Shown here piece by piece: positions 27,175 through 35,619 of a stretch of DNA of 64,000 bases. Origin of the DNA: Acidobacteriota bacterium (lineage in GTDB: Bacteria; Acidobacteriota; Terriglobia; Bryobacterales; UBA6623); assembly GCA_016125275.1 (NCBI GenBank), contig WGMB01000002.1:379231-443230 (forward strand), in the 5' to 3' direction. The notes beneath the pieces are model-generated. The model did not search any database, had not been told where the DNA came from, and saw only the letters and a program-made list of their open reading frames with translations. The stretch's first letter is position 1, and each line of letters opens with the position of its first letter. The position numbers and the translations under genes are program-made.

Positions 27175-27287
27175 CAGAGCTCCATGGCCCTTTGGCCGTA
27201 CCAACGCGAGGAGTTTAGCTGCGTCACAGCCGCCGAAGCAAGAGTATCCGTGAGCGTGTCCCCTTGTAGACGCAGGTGTTTCCGATT

Positions 27288-27322
27288 GTCCCGGGCGGCC
27301 GGCGCCGCAAATCCGCCGGGAC
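27288..27322. other. Hairpin in the divergent intergenic region
   Basis: Arms GTCCCGGGCGG (27288-27298) and CCGCCGGGAC (27313-27322) pair over 10 bp with one bulged G. It sits in the 275-bp gap between the divergent genes starting at 27174 and 27450. The gap also has a poor promoter-like TTGCAA-N16-TACCGG just before 27450 and no other feature I can support. Confidence 0.35.
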
Positions 27323-27449
27323 CGGGCGCGTTTTGCCACGCAATTCCCCGCCCCACCCCTCCCCGGGAAAGCATTGGCCGCACCCAGCCCGGCCGCCGAG
27401 TTGCAAATGGCCCCCTCCTTGCTACCGGCCCGCCGCAGGAGGAGTTTCC

Positions 27450-30400
27450 ATGCGTTTGTTTTTCGCAATGACCTTGTTGTTCGCACAAAGTCTGTTCGCC
27501 GGGATATCCCCGACGGACATTCAGACTCTTGCGCTGCCCGCCGAGCTCAACGGACTCGACATCTGGCTCGGCCATGCCATTTTCGACGACGCCGGCAATC
27601 AATACGTCGTCGGCCAGGCGCGAGTCCCCGAATCCGCCACGCCCACGCGGTTCCCTTCCAGTAATTCGGGCGACGCCTTGGCTCTCAAATACTCGCCCAC
27701 CGGTGAGCTCGTCTATTTCAAAACCTTTGGCGCGGCCAGCACTGAGTCGGTCGGCTCCAGCGATTGGGCCGTGCGCGCCGCCGTGGCGCCCGACGGACGC
27801 CTCTACATCATTGGCATGACCAACTCGCCCGACTTTCCCAACGCCGGCGACGGCCGGACGCGGGAAGGCTTCGTGGCGACCCTCAGCGCCGACGGCTCTC
27901 AGATCCTCGGCGGCCGCCGCATCGACGGCTCGCCGACCGAGATCGCCCTCGGCCCCAACGGCGCCGTCTATGTCGCCGGCGACACCACGTCGCCGACCTT
28001 TCCGGTGACCGTCGGCCCGATCCCGGTGACCGGACCCGGCGAGATCTACGTCAGCGCCGACGGCGGCGTGACCTGGCAAGCGTCGAGCACGGGCCTCATC
28101 GACCGTTCCTTCGGCCGTCCGATCATTCATCCGACTGATCCGCAGACGATCTACCTCGAGCAGGCGCGCGGGCTGGCGCGCAGCGACGACGGCGGCGCCA
28201 CCTGGACCGAAAGCGGCGTCCCCACCAGCAGCCAGGCATCGTACGGCCCGCCGTGGTTTCGTCCACGCGCCATTGCGCTGGACCCTCATGACGTCGACCG
28301 CGTCTACAACGGAGGGACCGACGGCCTCTACCGCAGTGACGACGGCGGCGCGAGTTGGACCAAGTTGCCGCTCGAGCCCGGCTTCGTGAGCGACCTCGTC
28401 CTCGACCCCGACAGCCCGGACACCCTCTACGCGCTCACTCCCAACGGCGTGTTCAAGTCCGCCGACGCCGGCCAGACCTGGACCCTGAAGACGACCGCCG
28501 CCGGAACCCGCGGCGCGCTGGCCCTCGACCCCTCGGCGCCGCAGACGGTCTACTTCGCCGAATCGCGCCCAGGCGGGCAGGTCCAACGCTCCACCGACGG
28601 AGGAGAGACCTGGACGTCGATCCGCAACGGCCTCCCAGAAAACCTCGTGGTTTCGTCCTTGGCCGTGGACCCGCGCAGCTCGCAGACGCTCTATCTCGCG
28701 TCTGACTATCTCGGGGTCTTCCGCAGCGAAGACGCCGGCGCCTCCTGGCAGGCCCGCGGCGCCGACACCTACGCAAACTCGGCCGGAGCCCGCATCGTCG
28801 TCGATCCGTTCACCGACGGGCGCCTGTGGGTCAACGGGCAGCGCAGCGACGACGAGGGTCTCACCTGGGAGCGCGTGGGCGCTGACCTCGAGTTCCCCCT
28901 CACGACGTCCTTCGCCCTGGACCCGCTCACACCGAATCGGCTGCTGGCCTCGGCCGTCGCCGGAGACCGCGAGCCGAACGCCTTCTTGCTGCGGCTGACC
29001 GCAGACCTCGAGACGGACTACGCCCGGGCGTTCGGCGGCATCCACAAGGATTCCGTCGGCGGGCTGGCCGTGGATGACTTGGGCGGCGCTGCAATCGTGG
29101 GCGTCACCGCCTCGCGGGACTTTCCCCTGGTCAACCCCCTCGACGCCGAGATCGGCGATCGCGAGGACGCCTTCCTCATCGTGCTCAGCCCGGACGGCGA
29201 GACCGTCGAGTTGGCGACGTTCCTCGGCGACCGCTCCGCCCAGCGCGCCGACGGCGTCGTCTACGCCTCGGACCGCTCCCTGTACGTCGCCGGTCGCTCC
29301 GAGGGCCCCATCGTCAACGGGTCGAGCTTCGAGTCCACTGACGGCTTCGTCGCCAAGATCGCCGCCGACCTGGGAGCCGTGGACGCCTGGCTGCCGGTGG
29401 GCGGCTCGAACCTGGACTACCTTACTGACCTGGCGATCAACTCGTCGGGTCAGCCGGTGATCCTGGGCGCCACCTCGTCGAACGATCTGCCGGTCACCGC
29501 CTCCGGCGGCGATTGCGGCCCGCTGGACTTGCCGAACAGCGCCTTGTTCGTGGCGCTGCTCGACGCGGACCTCGCCGGCGTGGAGAGCTTGCTGCGCTAC
29601 GCCGGGCCGCCCCACTTCGTCACGGCCGTGCTGGGCCTTGCGGCCGGATCCGGCTCGCAAGTGGAGATCGTCGTGAACGGCCCGACGAAGCTGGCCCTGC
29701 CGGACGGCCCGCTGGAGCAGCGGCAAGGCCTGCAGCGCCTCACCGTGGAGGCGTCTCCCTCCTCCGCCATCGCCGTGACCTGCGCCGTCAACGGAGCGAG
29801 CTTCCTCTCCGGGACCGTGGCGCCGGGCCAGATCCTGACGCTGCGGGGAACCGGCCTCGGCCCCGACGAGCTGGTCGCCTTCGCCTACGTGGAAGGGGAG
29901 CCGCTGCCGACGGAGCTGGGCGGCGTGCGCGTGCTGTTCGACGGGGAGCCCGCCCCGGTCATCCACGCCTGGGACTTGCAAACCAGCGTGGTCGCGCCGG
30001 CCTCCGTGGCGGGCAAGAGCCAAGTCTCGGTGGAAGTGGAAGTGGACGGGGAGCTCTCGGACCCGATCACGTTGGCGGTCTCGGCGGCGTCGCCCGGAGT
30101 GTTCGTGCTCGGCCCCAACGGCGAATCCGCCCTCAGCGTGGATTGGCTGCTGGTGGGCGCGGAGCACCCGGTGGCGGGCGGCGACTACGTAGCCGTCTAC
30201 ATCACCGGCGCCGGACAACTCTCGTCGGCGGTGGACTGGGCGAGTTGGGCGCAGTTGGACGCTCCCTACGCCACCGTCTCCGGCGAGGTGGTCGCGACCA
30301 TCGGCGGCGCACCGGCCGAGGTCGCCTACGCCGGCCAAGCGCCGGGGCTGGTGAACGCCGTCCAGCAGGTGAACCTGCTGGTGCCTGCGGGAACGCCCGC

Positions 30401-30479
30401 GGGCGAGGTCGACTTGACGCTGGAGATCGCCGGACGGCCGGCGCAGACCGTCAAGCTGTTCGTGGGCGGGGCGCAGTAG
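27450..30479 (+). CDS. Large secreted protein with SBBP/BNR-type repeats and Solibacter-type C-terminal domain
   Basis: A 1009-residue protein with signal peptide MRLFFAMTLLFAQSLFAG and AGGAGGAG 4-11 nt before the ATG. Residues about 25-200 carry SBBP-like segments (GNQYVVGQARVP, ALKYSPTGELVYFKTFG). Residues about 205-500 are a sortilin/BNR-like propeller with repeated S-x-D-G-G-x-T-W boxes (SADGGVTWQAS, SDDGGATWTES, STDGGETWTSI). SBBP-like segments return (about 530-690). The C-terminus (from VNGASFLSGTVAPGQILTLRG, about residue 779) is the TIGR03437-like domain typical of Solibacter, ending in NAVQQVNLLVPAGTPAGEVDLTLEI. Such proteins are exported or surface-linked with unknown role, probably binding or structural. 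It converges with copB across an 11-bp hairpin. Confidence 0.9.
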   Translation: MRLFFAMTLLFAQSLFAGISPTDIQTLALPAELNGLDIWLGHAIFDDAGNQYVVGQARVPESATPTRFPSSNSGDALALKYSPTGELVYFKTFGAASTESVGSSDWAVRAAVAPDGRLYIIGMTNSPDFPNAGDGRTREGFVATLSADGSQILGGRRIDGSPTEIALGPNGAVYVAGDTTSPTFPVTVGPIPVTGPGEIYVSADGGVTWQASSTGLIDRSFGRPIIHPTDPQTIYLEQARGLARSDDGGATWTESGVPTSSQASYGPPWFRPRAIALDPHDVDRVYNGGTDGLYRSDDGGASWTKLPLEPGFVSDLVLDPDSPDTLYALTPNGVFKSADAGQTWTLKTTAAGTRGALALDPSAPQTVYFAESRPGGQVQRSTDGGETWTSIRNGLPENLVVSSLAVDPRSSQTLYLASDYLGVFRSEDAGASWQARGADTYANSAGARIVVDPFTDGRLWVNGQRSDDEGLTWERVGADLEFPLTTSFALDPLTPNRLLASAVAGDREPNAFLLRLTADLETDYARAFGGIHKDSVGGLAVDDLGGAAIVGVTASRDFPLVNPLDAEIGDREDAFLIVLSPDGETVELATFLGDRSAQRADGVVYASDRSLYVAGRSEGPIVNGSSFESTDGFVAKIAADLGAVDAWLPVGGSNLDYLTDLAINSSGQPVILGATSSNDLPVTASGGDCGPLDLPNSALFVALLDADLAGVESLLRYAGPPHFVTAVLGLAAGSGSQVEIVVNGPTKLALPDGPLEQRQGLQRLTVEASPSSAIAVTCAVNGASFLSGTVAPGQILTLRGTGLGPDELVAFAYVEGEPLPTELGGVRVLFDGEPAPVIHAWDLQTSVVAPASVAGKSQVSVEVEVDGELSDPITLAVSAASPGVFVLGPNGESALSVDWLLVGAEHPVAGGDYVAVYITGAGQLSSAVDWASWAQLDAPYATVSGEVVATIGGAPAEVAYAGQAPGLVNAVQQVNLLVPAGTPAGEVDLTLEIAGRPAQTVKLFVGGAQ

Positions 30480-32662: not shown

Positions 32663-34777
32663 TCAAGCCCTCTCGAGAGCCCGCACCGCTTGCGGTAGAG
32701 CCCGCTCCGCCGCCGCGTCTCCGCCGAAGCGGGCCGCGCTGTAGGCCTCGGCGACGGCCGCCGCCAGGGCGCGCAATCGCTCGTCGGGAATGGAGGCCGC
32801 AAACTCCTCGGCCGATTGCCAGGGCTTCCGCCGAAAGCCCCTGCGTTCCAAGGCCCGCAAGGCCAGCTCGTAGAAGTAGCTGCTGGCCGTCTCCGCGGCC
32901 CGCCCCCGCTCCAGCCTGCGCCGCATCAGCAACCGCCGCAAGCGCGGCGCCGCCCAGGGAACCAGCAGCAGCAGGGCCAGCGCGCCGAGCGCCGCCTTGG
33001 ATCGGTTGTTCCAGGCCACGGCGTCCAGGCTCGGCCAAGCGTCCGGATTGCGCAGCCGGTCCCACTGCGTCTCGAGAGTGAGCCACAGGTCCACGGCCTC
33101 GAACACGGCCTCCCGCGATCCCTCCTGCAGCGCGATGGCGATCTCCACCTGGCGGCGCGTGTCGTAGTCGACCACCCATTCGAGCCACGTGGACTGGAAG
33201 GCGTCCCAATACATCCACAGGCCGCTGGCGGAGATCGCCCGGTCGAACACGCCCGCCGTCGGCGTGGCGTCGAACTCCAGCCAGCCATAGCCGGGGATGT
33301 AGGCCTCCACCCAGCTATGCGCATCGCTCGAGCGCAGCACCAGCATCCCGGTGAGCGGGTTGGAGACGCCGCCGGCAAAGCCGCTGACGATGCGCGAAGG
33401 GATGCCCAGCGTCCGCAGCATCAACGCCATCGACGTCGCGAAGTACTCGCAGTGGCCCTTGCGGCGCTCGAACAGGAAGTTCGCCACCGGATCGGCGGCG
33501 CGCTCGGCCGGCAGGTCCAGGGTGTAGTCGAACTGCGTCTTGAGATACTCCTCCAGCAGACGGGCCCGCTCGAGCGGCGAGCGAGCGTCGCCCACGATCT
33601 GTCGCGCCAGCTCGCCGATGCGCGGGTCCAGATCGGGCAGGTCCAAGTAGTCGCTCTGGAACTCGCGGCTGAATAGCTCGATCACGTCGTTCGGACGCAG
33701 TCGACTGGGGTCGGGCAGCCACGCGACGACCTCGTAGCGCATGCTGCCGCCGCGGCCTTCCGGCGCGCGGAAGACGCCCTCGTCGTTCATCAGCAGACGG
33801 GAGAACAGGCCGCTGATGCGCTCCGGCTGTCCCGCCAGGAACAGCGCGTCGGTCTCCAGCGGCTCTTGCGTCACCCGGTACTCCAGCCGCTTGCCCTCGT
33901 CGGCGCGGCGCTCGTGGCCCAGGCGGGCGGCATAGCCGGCGCCGCGCGAGCTCAGCTCGCGTAGCCGGCTGCTCGGCGCGGACCAGCGCATGCCGTCAAA
34001 GCGGTACAGCGCCACCCCGCGCCAGCGCAGGTTGCGCACGTCCGAGCCCGCCAGCGGCTGCACGCGCATCACCGGCCGCGGATCGGGGTCCAGCGCGCCG
34101 GTCAGCCCCAGGTTCACTTCGCTGGAGAAGCCCACCCGGTGGCGGTCGCTGAAGCCGCCGTTGGACGAATAGGGCCGCGGCAGCACCGCGAACAGCCCCG
34201 AGGTCAACAGCAGAATGCCCGCCGCCAGCCCCACCGCCCAACGCGCCAGCGCCGCGCCCAGCCTGCGTCCCGACGGCGCCGCGATCACCCGCGGAGAGCC
34301 CTCGTAGCCGCTCTGCAACTGCCACGCCGCCGCCGTCAGGCAGGCCAGAAACAAGAACAGCCCCAGCGAAACCAGAAAGCTCGGCCCGGCCGTGAAGACC
34401 GACGCCGTCAACAACTCCAGAAAGGCCAGCAGCCCCAGGTAGACGAAATCCCTCGAACGCTCGGCGATCAGCAGCTTCAGCGAGGCGAATAGGAACATCA
34501 TCCGCACCGTCGCCACCACGAAGTCGCCGGAGATCCACAGAATGTCCGCCGGATAGAACAGGACGAAGCCGATGGCCAGCGCCGACGCCGCCGGGCGCGA
34601 CAGCGCCGTCCGGAGCCGGCCGGTCAGCATCAAGGTGCGGCCGATCAAGGCCAGCACGTGAACGATGGCGGTAACGGGGTCGAGGCCGCCGTTGAGCCAC
34701 ACGGCCAGAAAGCCGTTGAGCAGCAACAGCAGCAGAGCGGACTCGAAGAGTCTGCGATGAGGGTGCTCCGCGACCAT
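32663..34777 (-). CDS. TgpA-like membrane transglutaminase (DUF3488-transglutaminase core-DUF4129)
   Basis: A 704-residue protein with about five N-terminal membrane helices (DUF3488-type, residues 10-200), an extracytoplasmic transglutaminase-like domain with the Cys-His-Asp triad in RKGHCEYFATSMALMLRTLGIPSR, SDAHSWVEAY and WLEFDATP, one further helix (ALGALALLLLVPWAA), and a C-terminal cytoplasmic DUF4129-like segment (YFYELALRALERRGFRRKPWQSAEEFA). Relatives such as Pseudomonas TgpA are essential or cell-envelope linked, and the family often sits with MoxR and DUF58 genes. Here those partners are absent locally; a DUF58 cluster lies 24 kb away at 58994. No strong ribosome-binding site or -10 hexamer precedes the ATG. 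Confidence 0.9.
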   Translation of the reverse strand: MVAEHPHRRLFESALLLLLLNGFLAVWLNGGLDPVTAIVHVLALIGRTLMLTGRLRTALSRPAASALAIGFVLFYPADILWISGDFVVATVRMMFLFASLKLLIAERSRDFVYLGLLAFLELLTASVFTAGPSFLVSLGLFLFLACLTAAAWQLQSGYEGSPRVIAAPSGRRLGAALARWAVGLAAGILLLTSGLFAVLPRPYSSNGGFSDRHRVGFSSEVNLGLTGALDPDPRPVMRVQPLAGSDVRNLRWRGVALYRFDGMRWSAPSSRLRELSSRGAGYAARLGHERRADEGKRLEYRVTQEPLETDALFLAGQPERISGLFSRLLMNDEGVFRAPEGRGGSMRYEVVAWLPDPSRLRPNDVIELFSREFQSDYLDLPDLDPRIGELARQIVGDARSPLERARLLEEYLKTQFDYTLDLPAERAADPVANFLFERRKGHCEYFATSMALMLRTLGIPSRIVSGFAGGVSNPLTGMLVLRSSDAHSWVEAYIPGYGWLEFDATPTAGVFDRAISASGLWMYWDAFQSTWLEWVVDYDTRRQVEIAIALQEGSREAVFEAVDLWLTLETQWDRLRNPDAWPSLDAVAWNNRSKAALGALALLLLVPWAAPRLRRLLMRRRLERGRAAETASSYFYELALRALERRGFRRKPWQSAEEFAASIPDERLRALAAAVAEAYSAARFGGDAAAERALPQAVRALERA

Positions 34778-34852
34778 CGAGCGGTCCCGACCGGCCGTCG
34801 GCGCCGGTCTCGCTCATTGTCGCGCAGGCTTTGGCAGGCAGGCGAGCGATTC

Positions 34853-34965
34853 GCGCTGAGCCGCGAGCGTAAGCCCGCCGCGGCAACCCTGGAGCTCAGG
34901 CAGGGTATGAAAGGATATTTCGAGCTCCAAAGTTACGTTGCGGGCCTACGCTCGCGGCTCAGCGC
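34853..34965. repeat. 113-bp imperfect palindrome in a 413-bp gene-free region
   Basis: Two 26-nt arms (34853-34878 and 34940-34965) are reverse complements at 25 of 26 positions. They enclose 61 nt that contain a second perfect inverted repeat, TGGAGCTC (34890-34897) with GAGCTCCA (34922-34929). No gene is supported within 34778-35190. The remaining part (34966-35160) is unusually T-rich between 35020 and 35115. No target-site duplication is evident. Confidence 0.85.
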
Positions 34966-35161
34966 CTCCCCCCCTTACACTCTTCGTCCCATCCGGGGCT
35001 GAAGCTGCGTAAGAGCATGTGGTTTCGTTCTCAATTTTTCGTTGCTATCTGGATCAGCGACGAAGCGGCCACGTTACCCTCACCGCTCCCTCACTTTTTT
35101 GAGAAGTTTTTTCGACCGGCCGGCGGATGCCCTGGCCCCGGACGGCCCGTTCTCCGCGCCT

Positions 35162-35170
35162 TGCTACACT
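35162..35170 (+). promoter_or_regulatory. Extended -10 (TGC-TACACT) of the bacilliredoxin gene
   Basis: TGC-TACACT ends 20 nt before the ATG at 35191, with GGAGG between at 5-nt spacing. This is a short-leader, conventional arrangement. Confidence 0.5.
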
Positions 35171-35190
35171 AACGGTCTGCTGGAGGACGT

Positions 35191-35619
35191 ATGTATCCCG
35201 AGTATTTCATTGCACCGATGCGCGAAGAGCTGTCCCGTTACGGGATCGAAGAGACCCGTTCGGCCGCCGACGTCGACGGCCTGCTGGCCAAGGGCGGCAC
35301 GGCGATGATCGTGGTCAACTCCGTGTGCGGTTGCGCGGCCGGCAAGGCGCGGCCCGGCATCGTGCAGTCCTTGCAGCATTCGGTCAAGCCCGACCATGTG
35401 GCGACCGTCTTCGCCGGCGGCGATGTGGAAGCGACGGCGCGCGTGCGCGAGATCCTCTCCGACTATCCGCCCTCGTCGCCCTCGGTGGCGCTGTTCCAGG
35501 ACGGCAAGCCCGTCTACTTCATGCCGCGCATGGCGATCGAGAGCTCGGACGCGCTCACGATCTCTGAAAACCTCAAGCGCGCCTACGAGCAGTACTGCGG
35601 CCAGAGCCAGCAGGCCTGA
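35191..35619 (+). CDS. BrxA/BrxB-family bacilliredoxin
   Basis: A 142-residue full-length UPF0403-type protein. The thioredoxin-like fold carries the atypical active site CGC in VNSVCGCAAGKARP (about residues 45-50), and the N-terminus MYPEYFIAPMREEL matches the family. In Firmicutes these proteins remove bacillithiol from S-bacillithiolated proteins. Acidobacteriota commonly keep a BrxA/B homologue, and bacillithiol or another thiol could be the partner. GGAGG precedes the ATG. The sulfatase gene follows after 35 bp in the same direction but has its own -10 signal. Confidence 0.95.
   Translation: MYPEYFIAPMREELSRYGIEETRSAADVDGLLAKGGTAMIVVNSVCGCAAGKARPGIVQSLQHSVKPDHVATVFAGGDVEATARVREILSDYPPSSPSVALFQDGKPVYFMPRMAIESSDALTISENLKRAYEQYCGQSQQA

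Follow-up and report, generated by a model that had tools for sequence, protein, structure and literature searches.

A palindrome between divergent transglutaminase and bacilliredoxin genes is very probably an orphaned REPIN-like element of the class 3 Y1 HuH kind

Results

The palindrome and its genomic setting

The window (the whole 64-kb stretch of DNA that was analysed) contains a 413-bp gap between genes (34778-35190). On one side lies a TgpA-type transglutaminase gene with TgpA_N, Transglut_core and DUF4129 domains (32663-34777, minus strand), and on the other a BrxA/BrxB (YphP/YqiW) bacilliredoxin gene (brxA/yphP; 35191-35619, plus strand). Both are transcribed away from a palindrome that lies between them, and the gene-free gap between divergent genes described in an earlier note on this DNA was thereby confirmed. 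Elsewhere in the window, a plus-strand gene (27276-30479) encodes a large protein with BNR/Ycf48-like repeats and a C-terminal Soli_cterm domain (TIGR03437). This protein, along with the taxa that share the repeat described below, suggests a place for the genome in the Solibacter/Bryobacter branch of Acidobacteria.

The palindrome (34853-34965, about 113 bp, no strand assigned) consists of two 26-nt arms, 34853-34878 and 34940-34965, which an inverted-repeat search found to be reverse-complementary at 25 of 26 positions. The 61 nt between them (34879-34939) are partly self-complementary and enclose a perfect 8-bp inverted repeat, TGGAGCTC (34890-34897) and GAGCTCCA (34922-34929), which can be read from the sequence; the arms, centre and inner repeat are therefore as the earlier note had given them. 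This is the strongest inverted repeat of the window, the next near pairs being 71-89% complementary. Within 200 nt, exact inverted pairs reached 19 nt at most, whereas 20 first-order Markov sequences of equal length gave maxima of 0-15 nt. When folded as RNA, the 113 nt gave -78.4 kcal/mol (z = -9.7), and 0 of 200 shuffles were as good.

Each arm has the form of a REP-like unit: a 6-bp stem with a GTRR loop, preceded by the 5' foot CTGA, which conforms to CnGA. Unit A (34853-34878, plus strand) comprises the foot CTGA (34856-34859), the stem GCGAGC (34863-34868), the loop GTAA (34869-34872) and the stem GCCCGC (34873-34878). Unit B (34940-34965, minus strand) is inverted, with the foot CTGA at 34962-34959, the stem GCGAGC at 34955-34950, the loop GTAG at 34949-34946 and the stem GCCCGC at 34945-34940. 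In both units the foot takes the CnGA form of class 3 hairpins, the hairpin follows the foot region directly, as in that class, and 5 of the 6 stem pairs are standard, the other being an A-C mismatch. The sole mismatch between the arms, which had been placed inside the arm, was indeed found there: it is the A/G difference between the GTAA and GTAG loops. The two units are inverted and fold together, as in a REPIN doublet, and the whole element is read as an inverted pair of REP-like units from the repeat search, the fold and an architecture common to two other genomes (G100 and G101, below).

Lying upstream of both divergent genes and folding very stably, the palindrome would suit control of the bacilliredoxin or transglutaminase gene by a structured RNA or a cruciform site for protein binding. 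However, no Rfam 15 family matched above its gathering score anywhere in the window, and a scan restricted to the sigma-70 consensus found no promoter-like site in the gap. The regions upstream of the bacilliredoxin gene in 29 relatives held no convincing unit (three matches, at 13.8-15.6 bits, were near chance level), no comparable palindrome was present there in the 21 relatives examined, and the transglutaminase neighbour was not retained at that position in the relatives examined. The arm sequence is also dispersed elsewhere as a repeat. Structured RNA and a cruciform binding site, two of the guesses made in the earlier note, lose support because there is no Rfam match and the element is missing upstream of bacilliredoxin in the 29 relatives; we regard a regulatory role of either kind as very improbable. 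A terminator had already been thought unlikely, and a scan of 34700-35260 supported this, with 0 sites at which a stem was followed by a T run.

A family of REP-like units with paired stems

In related units of the same genome, GAGCC is followed by a first 6-nt stem strand, GTNA and the complementary 6-nt strand; examples of these stems are GCGGGC/GCCCGC, GCAACC/GGTTGC, CCCAGC/GCTGGG and GCGGCC/GGCCGC. In an alignment of 33 units, 86.9% of cells pair and 32 cells are changed on both sides, while alignment positions C7, G9 and A10 (CnGA) are invariant or at least 90% conserved. Stem covariation was 0.371, against 0.100 when shuffled and at most 0.101 when slid. Some of this covariation reflects selection, since pairing was a criterion for many of the training units; L004, L006 and L010, the earliest units from this genome, were however located by their 5' part alone and pair equally well.

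A covariance model (R1) was built from these 33 units, with the two window units left out. When R1 was run on the 64-kb window, the arms ranked first and second: unit A scored 23.5 bits (E 1.5e-4), and unit B scored 14.9 bits (E 0.032), barely ahead of the next match at 14.6 bits. Units A and B score lower than the genome's other copies. Scaled to 7.5 Mb, their E values become about 0.02 and about 4, and neither unit by itself would be called at a genome-wide threshold. Their flank, GCGCT, also departs from the usual CAACA or CATCA. The case for the window pair rests on an exact 17-mer, a near-exact inverted partner, orientation and length.

In the rest of the window's genome (G000), R1 found 23 units at E<=0.001, none of which is of the window's exact sub-type. 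Several of these form inverted pairs, 88 bp over the R1 model, and REP-like units also occur singly. The distribution of R1 units across genomes is patchy: they were found in 21 of 61, with 0 in many genomes of the same family and more than 100 in two others.

Inverted pairs with the same arms in other genomes

The earlier note had proposed a search of the genome and its relatives for dispersed copies. A DNA search found no second full-length copy of the palindrome in its own genome or in 100 relatives. An arm-gap-arm pattern scan of 84,980 species genomes returned six loci, five of them in one Acidobacteria metagenome-assembled genome (MAG), JAPKYU01 (G100), and one in a Phycisphaerales MAG, WQYP01 (G101). 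When up to one mismatch was allowed, G100 had 80 occurrences of the arm 17-mer GAGCCGCGAGCGTAAGC and G101 had 53, compared with 0 for a reversed control pattern. Many of these copies are arranged as inverted pairs of 57-108 bp, usually with CAACA or CATCA in front; the window pair, from GAGCC to GGCTC, is 103 bp long.

The 17-mer is exact in one window arm, unit A, and one mismatch off in the other. The exact form is shared with G100, G101, G106 and G196 and is rare in the window's phylum, where it was found in three of 396 genomes, the window's own included. In foot, stem, loop, orientation and length, the architecture of the window element matches that of the G100/G101 repeat. Viral contigs gave four single matches to the arm with no inverted partner, and these were taken as chance. 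A search of literature text for the arm sequence found none.

The inner arms were also compared. In G101 (L240-L256) they differ between copies, yet match within a copy better than under permutation (0.711 vs 0.584; 6 of 10000 permutations). In G100, inner arms match no better within copies (0.815) than between them (0.864), and co-evolution of the inner arms is therefore not general. Most G100 units (L257-L276) keep a tandem G-A/A-G mismatch in the middle of the stem (GCGAGC-GTAA-GCGAGC), as if sheared G-A pairs had replaced Watson-Crick pairs.

Units lie beside class 3 Y1 transposase genes

Quentin et al. 2018 (PMC6006769), in their brief treatment of class 3 TnpA_Y1, describe proteins with an NHVH motif, a YV[VI][AENY]EQ motif and a profile of 155 aa. 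The genes are flanked by atypical hairpins with a CnGA foot and occur in Planctomycetes, Acidobacteria and Proteobacteria; Solibacter usitatus is given about 600 class 3 hairpins.

The Y1_Tnp (PF01797) genes of the REP-rich relatives are of two kinds. Proteins of one kind match only the middle of the Pfam profile; their N-terminus is long and conserved, and they carry NHVH (or THVH) together with motifs resembling YVVDDQ, YLVGEQ or YVLDEQ. Judged by sequence, they fit class 3 TnpA_Y1 as described in PMC6006769. The Y1_Tnp membership of these proteins is assigned from Pfam; a PDB sequence search with the class 3 profile returned chance matches and no HuH match.

An R1 unit was found within about 1.5 kb of 11 of the 13 class 3 loci, as against 1 of 28 other Y1 transposase loci (Fisher 2.8e-7), the exception being L189 at 20.6 bits. 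A re-scan of 25 of those 28 loci, with L189 left out, found 0 (Fisher 6e-8 against the class 3 loci). An intact class 3 gene of G100 is followed, 2 nt beyond its stop codon, by an inverted pair that carries the identical 17-mer. Of 61 genomes, 14 combined units with a strong class 3 gene (E below 1e-20), 2 had the gene only, 7 units only and 38 neither (Fisher 4.6e-7, uncorrected for kinship). Strong class 3 genes were present in G039 and G048 (genus g19), where R1 found no unit; these genes perhaps belong with a different hairpin sub-family.

No intact class 3 gene was found in the window's genome, the assembly of which is 97.6% complete. The sole trace is a 46-aa stretch (G000:C20:204762-204899; L222) from the beginning of a truncated class 3 gene; it is frameshifted, and a REP-like unit scoring 26.7 bits lies on its 5' side. 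The genome also has three class 2-like Y1 genes, none with an R1 unit nearby. At L118 (the G000:C14:694166 region), a class 2-like RAYT gene (1086-2087) is flanked by four 104-nt direct repeats, 74-100% identical, which probably represent another, unrelated REP family of this genome.

Discussion

The palindrome is very probably a REPIN-like element of the CnGA/class 3 Y1 HuH kind that has diverged and been orphaned. The analysis showed the unit itself, with its pairing and dispersal, its arrangement in inverted pairs and its location next to class 3 genes. On the best reading, the kind is already known, having been briefly noted by Quentin et al. 2018 (PMC6006769), and the window element is a further member.

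Of the three guesses in the earlier note, a mobile remnant came nearest. A MITE moved by a DDE transposase would likewise be short and non-coding, with near-perfect terminal inverted repeats and arms dispersed in other genomes. Yet there is no second full-length copy in the genome and no flanking target-site duplication or other direct repeat is visible, so the element does not look like a classical MITE. Moreover, the conserved parts are hairpin units that are also found singly, and the genes adjoining such units are Y1 HuH genes; we consider this origin very unlikely. Chance, or a local inverted duplication with arms that resemble the repeat by accident, would agree with the single copy in the genome and the weak genome-wide match of each unit alone, but is very unlikely: in the window's only strong palindrome, one arm matches the repeat of other genomes exactly over 17 nt and the other with one mismatch, and the foot, stem, loop, orientation and length are those of the repeat.

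If the palindrome is a REPIN-like element, its behaviour may be pictured by analogy with IS200/IS605 and TnpA_REP (PMC6006769). Where the DNA is single-stranded, as in the lagging-strand template, a small hairpin could form from each unit, or a single long one from the pair as a whole. Such a hairpin would be bound by the transposase, with the CnGA foot directing cleavage beside it, and the DNA from foot to foot would be copied or transferred to a new location. The copy in the window is probably a remnant that no longer moves and has no required local function, as only a truncated, frameshifted class 3 gene and no intact enzyme was found in the genome, the flank is diverged and there is one A-C stem mismatch. 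The earlier note's remark that the arms have been kept nearly identical holds for the near-identity (25/26), but selection is not required, because pairs that are copied as one piece, or that correct each other as a hairpin, look alike.

As a tentative generalization, class 3 Y1 transposases may drive a third kind of REPIN population, one that crosses phyla, has its own foot code (CnGA) and a stem free in sequence if paired, and can outlive its transposase, as in the window's genome. In the literature found, there was little on class 3 Y1 transposases and their hairpins beyond one short paragraph. The set collected here provides a usable unit model with a covarying stem. Across many genomes the unit goes with class 3 genes rather than with other Y1 transposase genes, and Acidobacteria and Planctomycetes both have inverted pairs with these arms. 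Whether class 3 systems are REPtrons or insertion sequences is thereby made directly testable in vitro. For the window, this reading also explains a conspicuous palindrome and cautions against annotating it as a regulator.

The window element resembles several known systems to different degrees. With the IS200/IS605 subterminal hairpins (PMC6006769) it shares, by analogy, a small hairpin, a 5' guide tetranucleotide and putative recognition by a Y1 HuH enzyme; unlike them, the window hairpins have no transposase gene between them and the units are mutually inverted. The REPIN/BIME of class 2 RAYTs, with GTAG-tagged REPs (PMC3116915, PMC3733652), are likewise inverted REP pairs that can form one long hairpin and are mostly intergenic. 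Assignment to this group (GTAG/CGTC REPs, class 2 RAYT) was nevertheless rejected: the window foot is CTGA, of the form CnGA and not GT[AG]G, and units lie beside only 1 of the 28 other (class 2-like) Y1 genes. The class 3 hairpins, as outlined in PMC6006769, have the CnGA foot at the 5' side of the hairpin, occur in Acidobacteria and Planctomycetes, adjoin class 3 genes with the NHVH and Y....Q motifs and reach high copy number in some genomes, all as seen here. The window pair differs in lying far from any transposase, in a genome in which only a broken class 3 gene was found. From the foot, the protein class and the taxa, we infer that the units described here and the published class 3 hairpins are the same in sequence.
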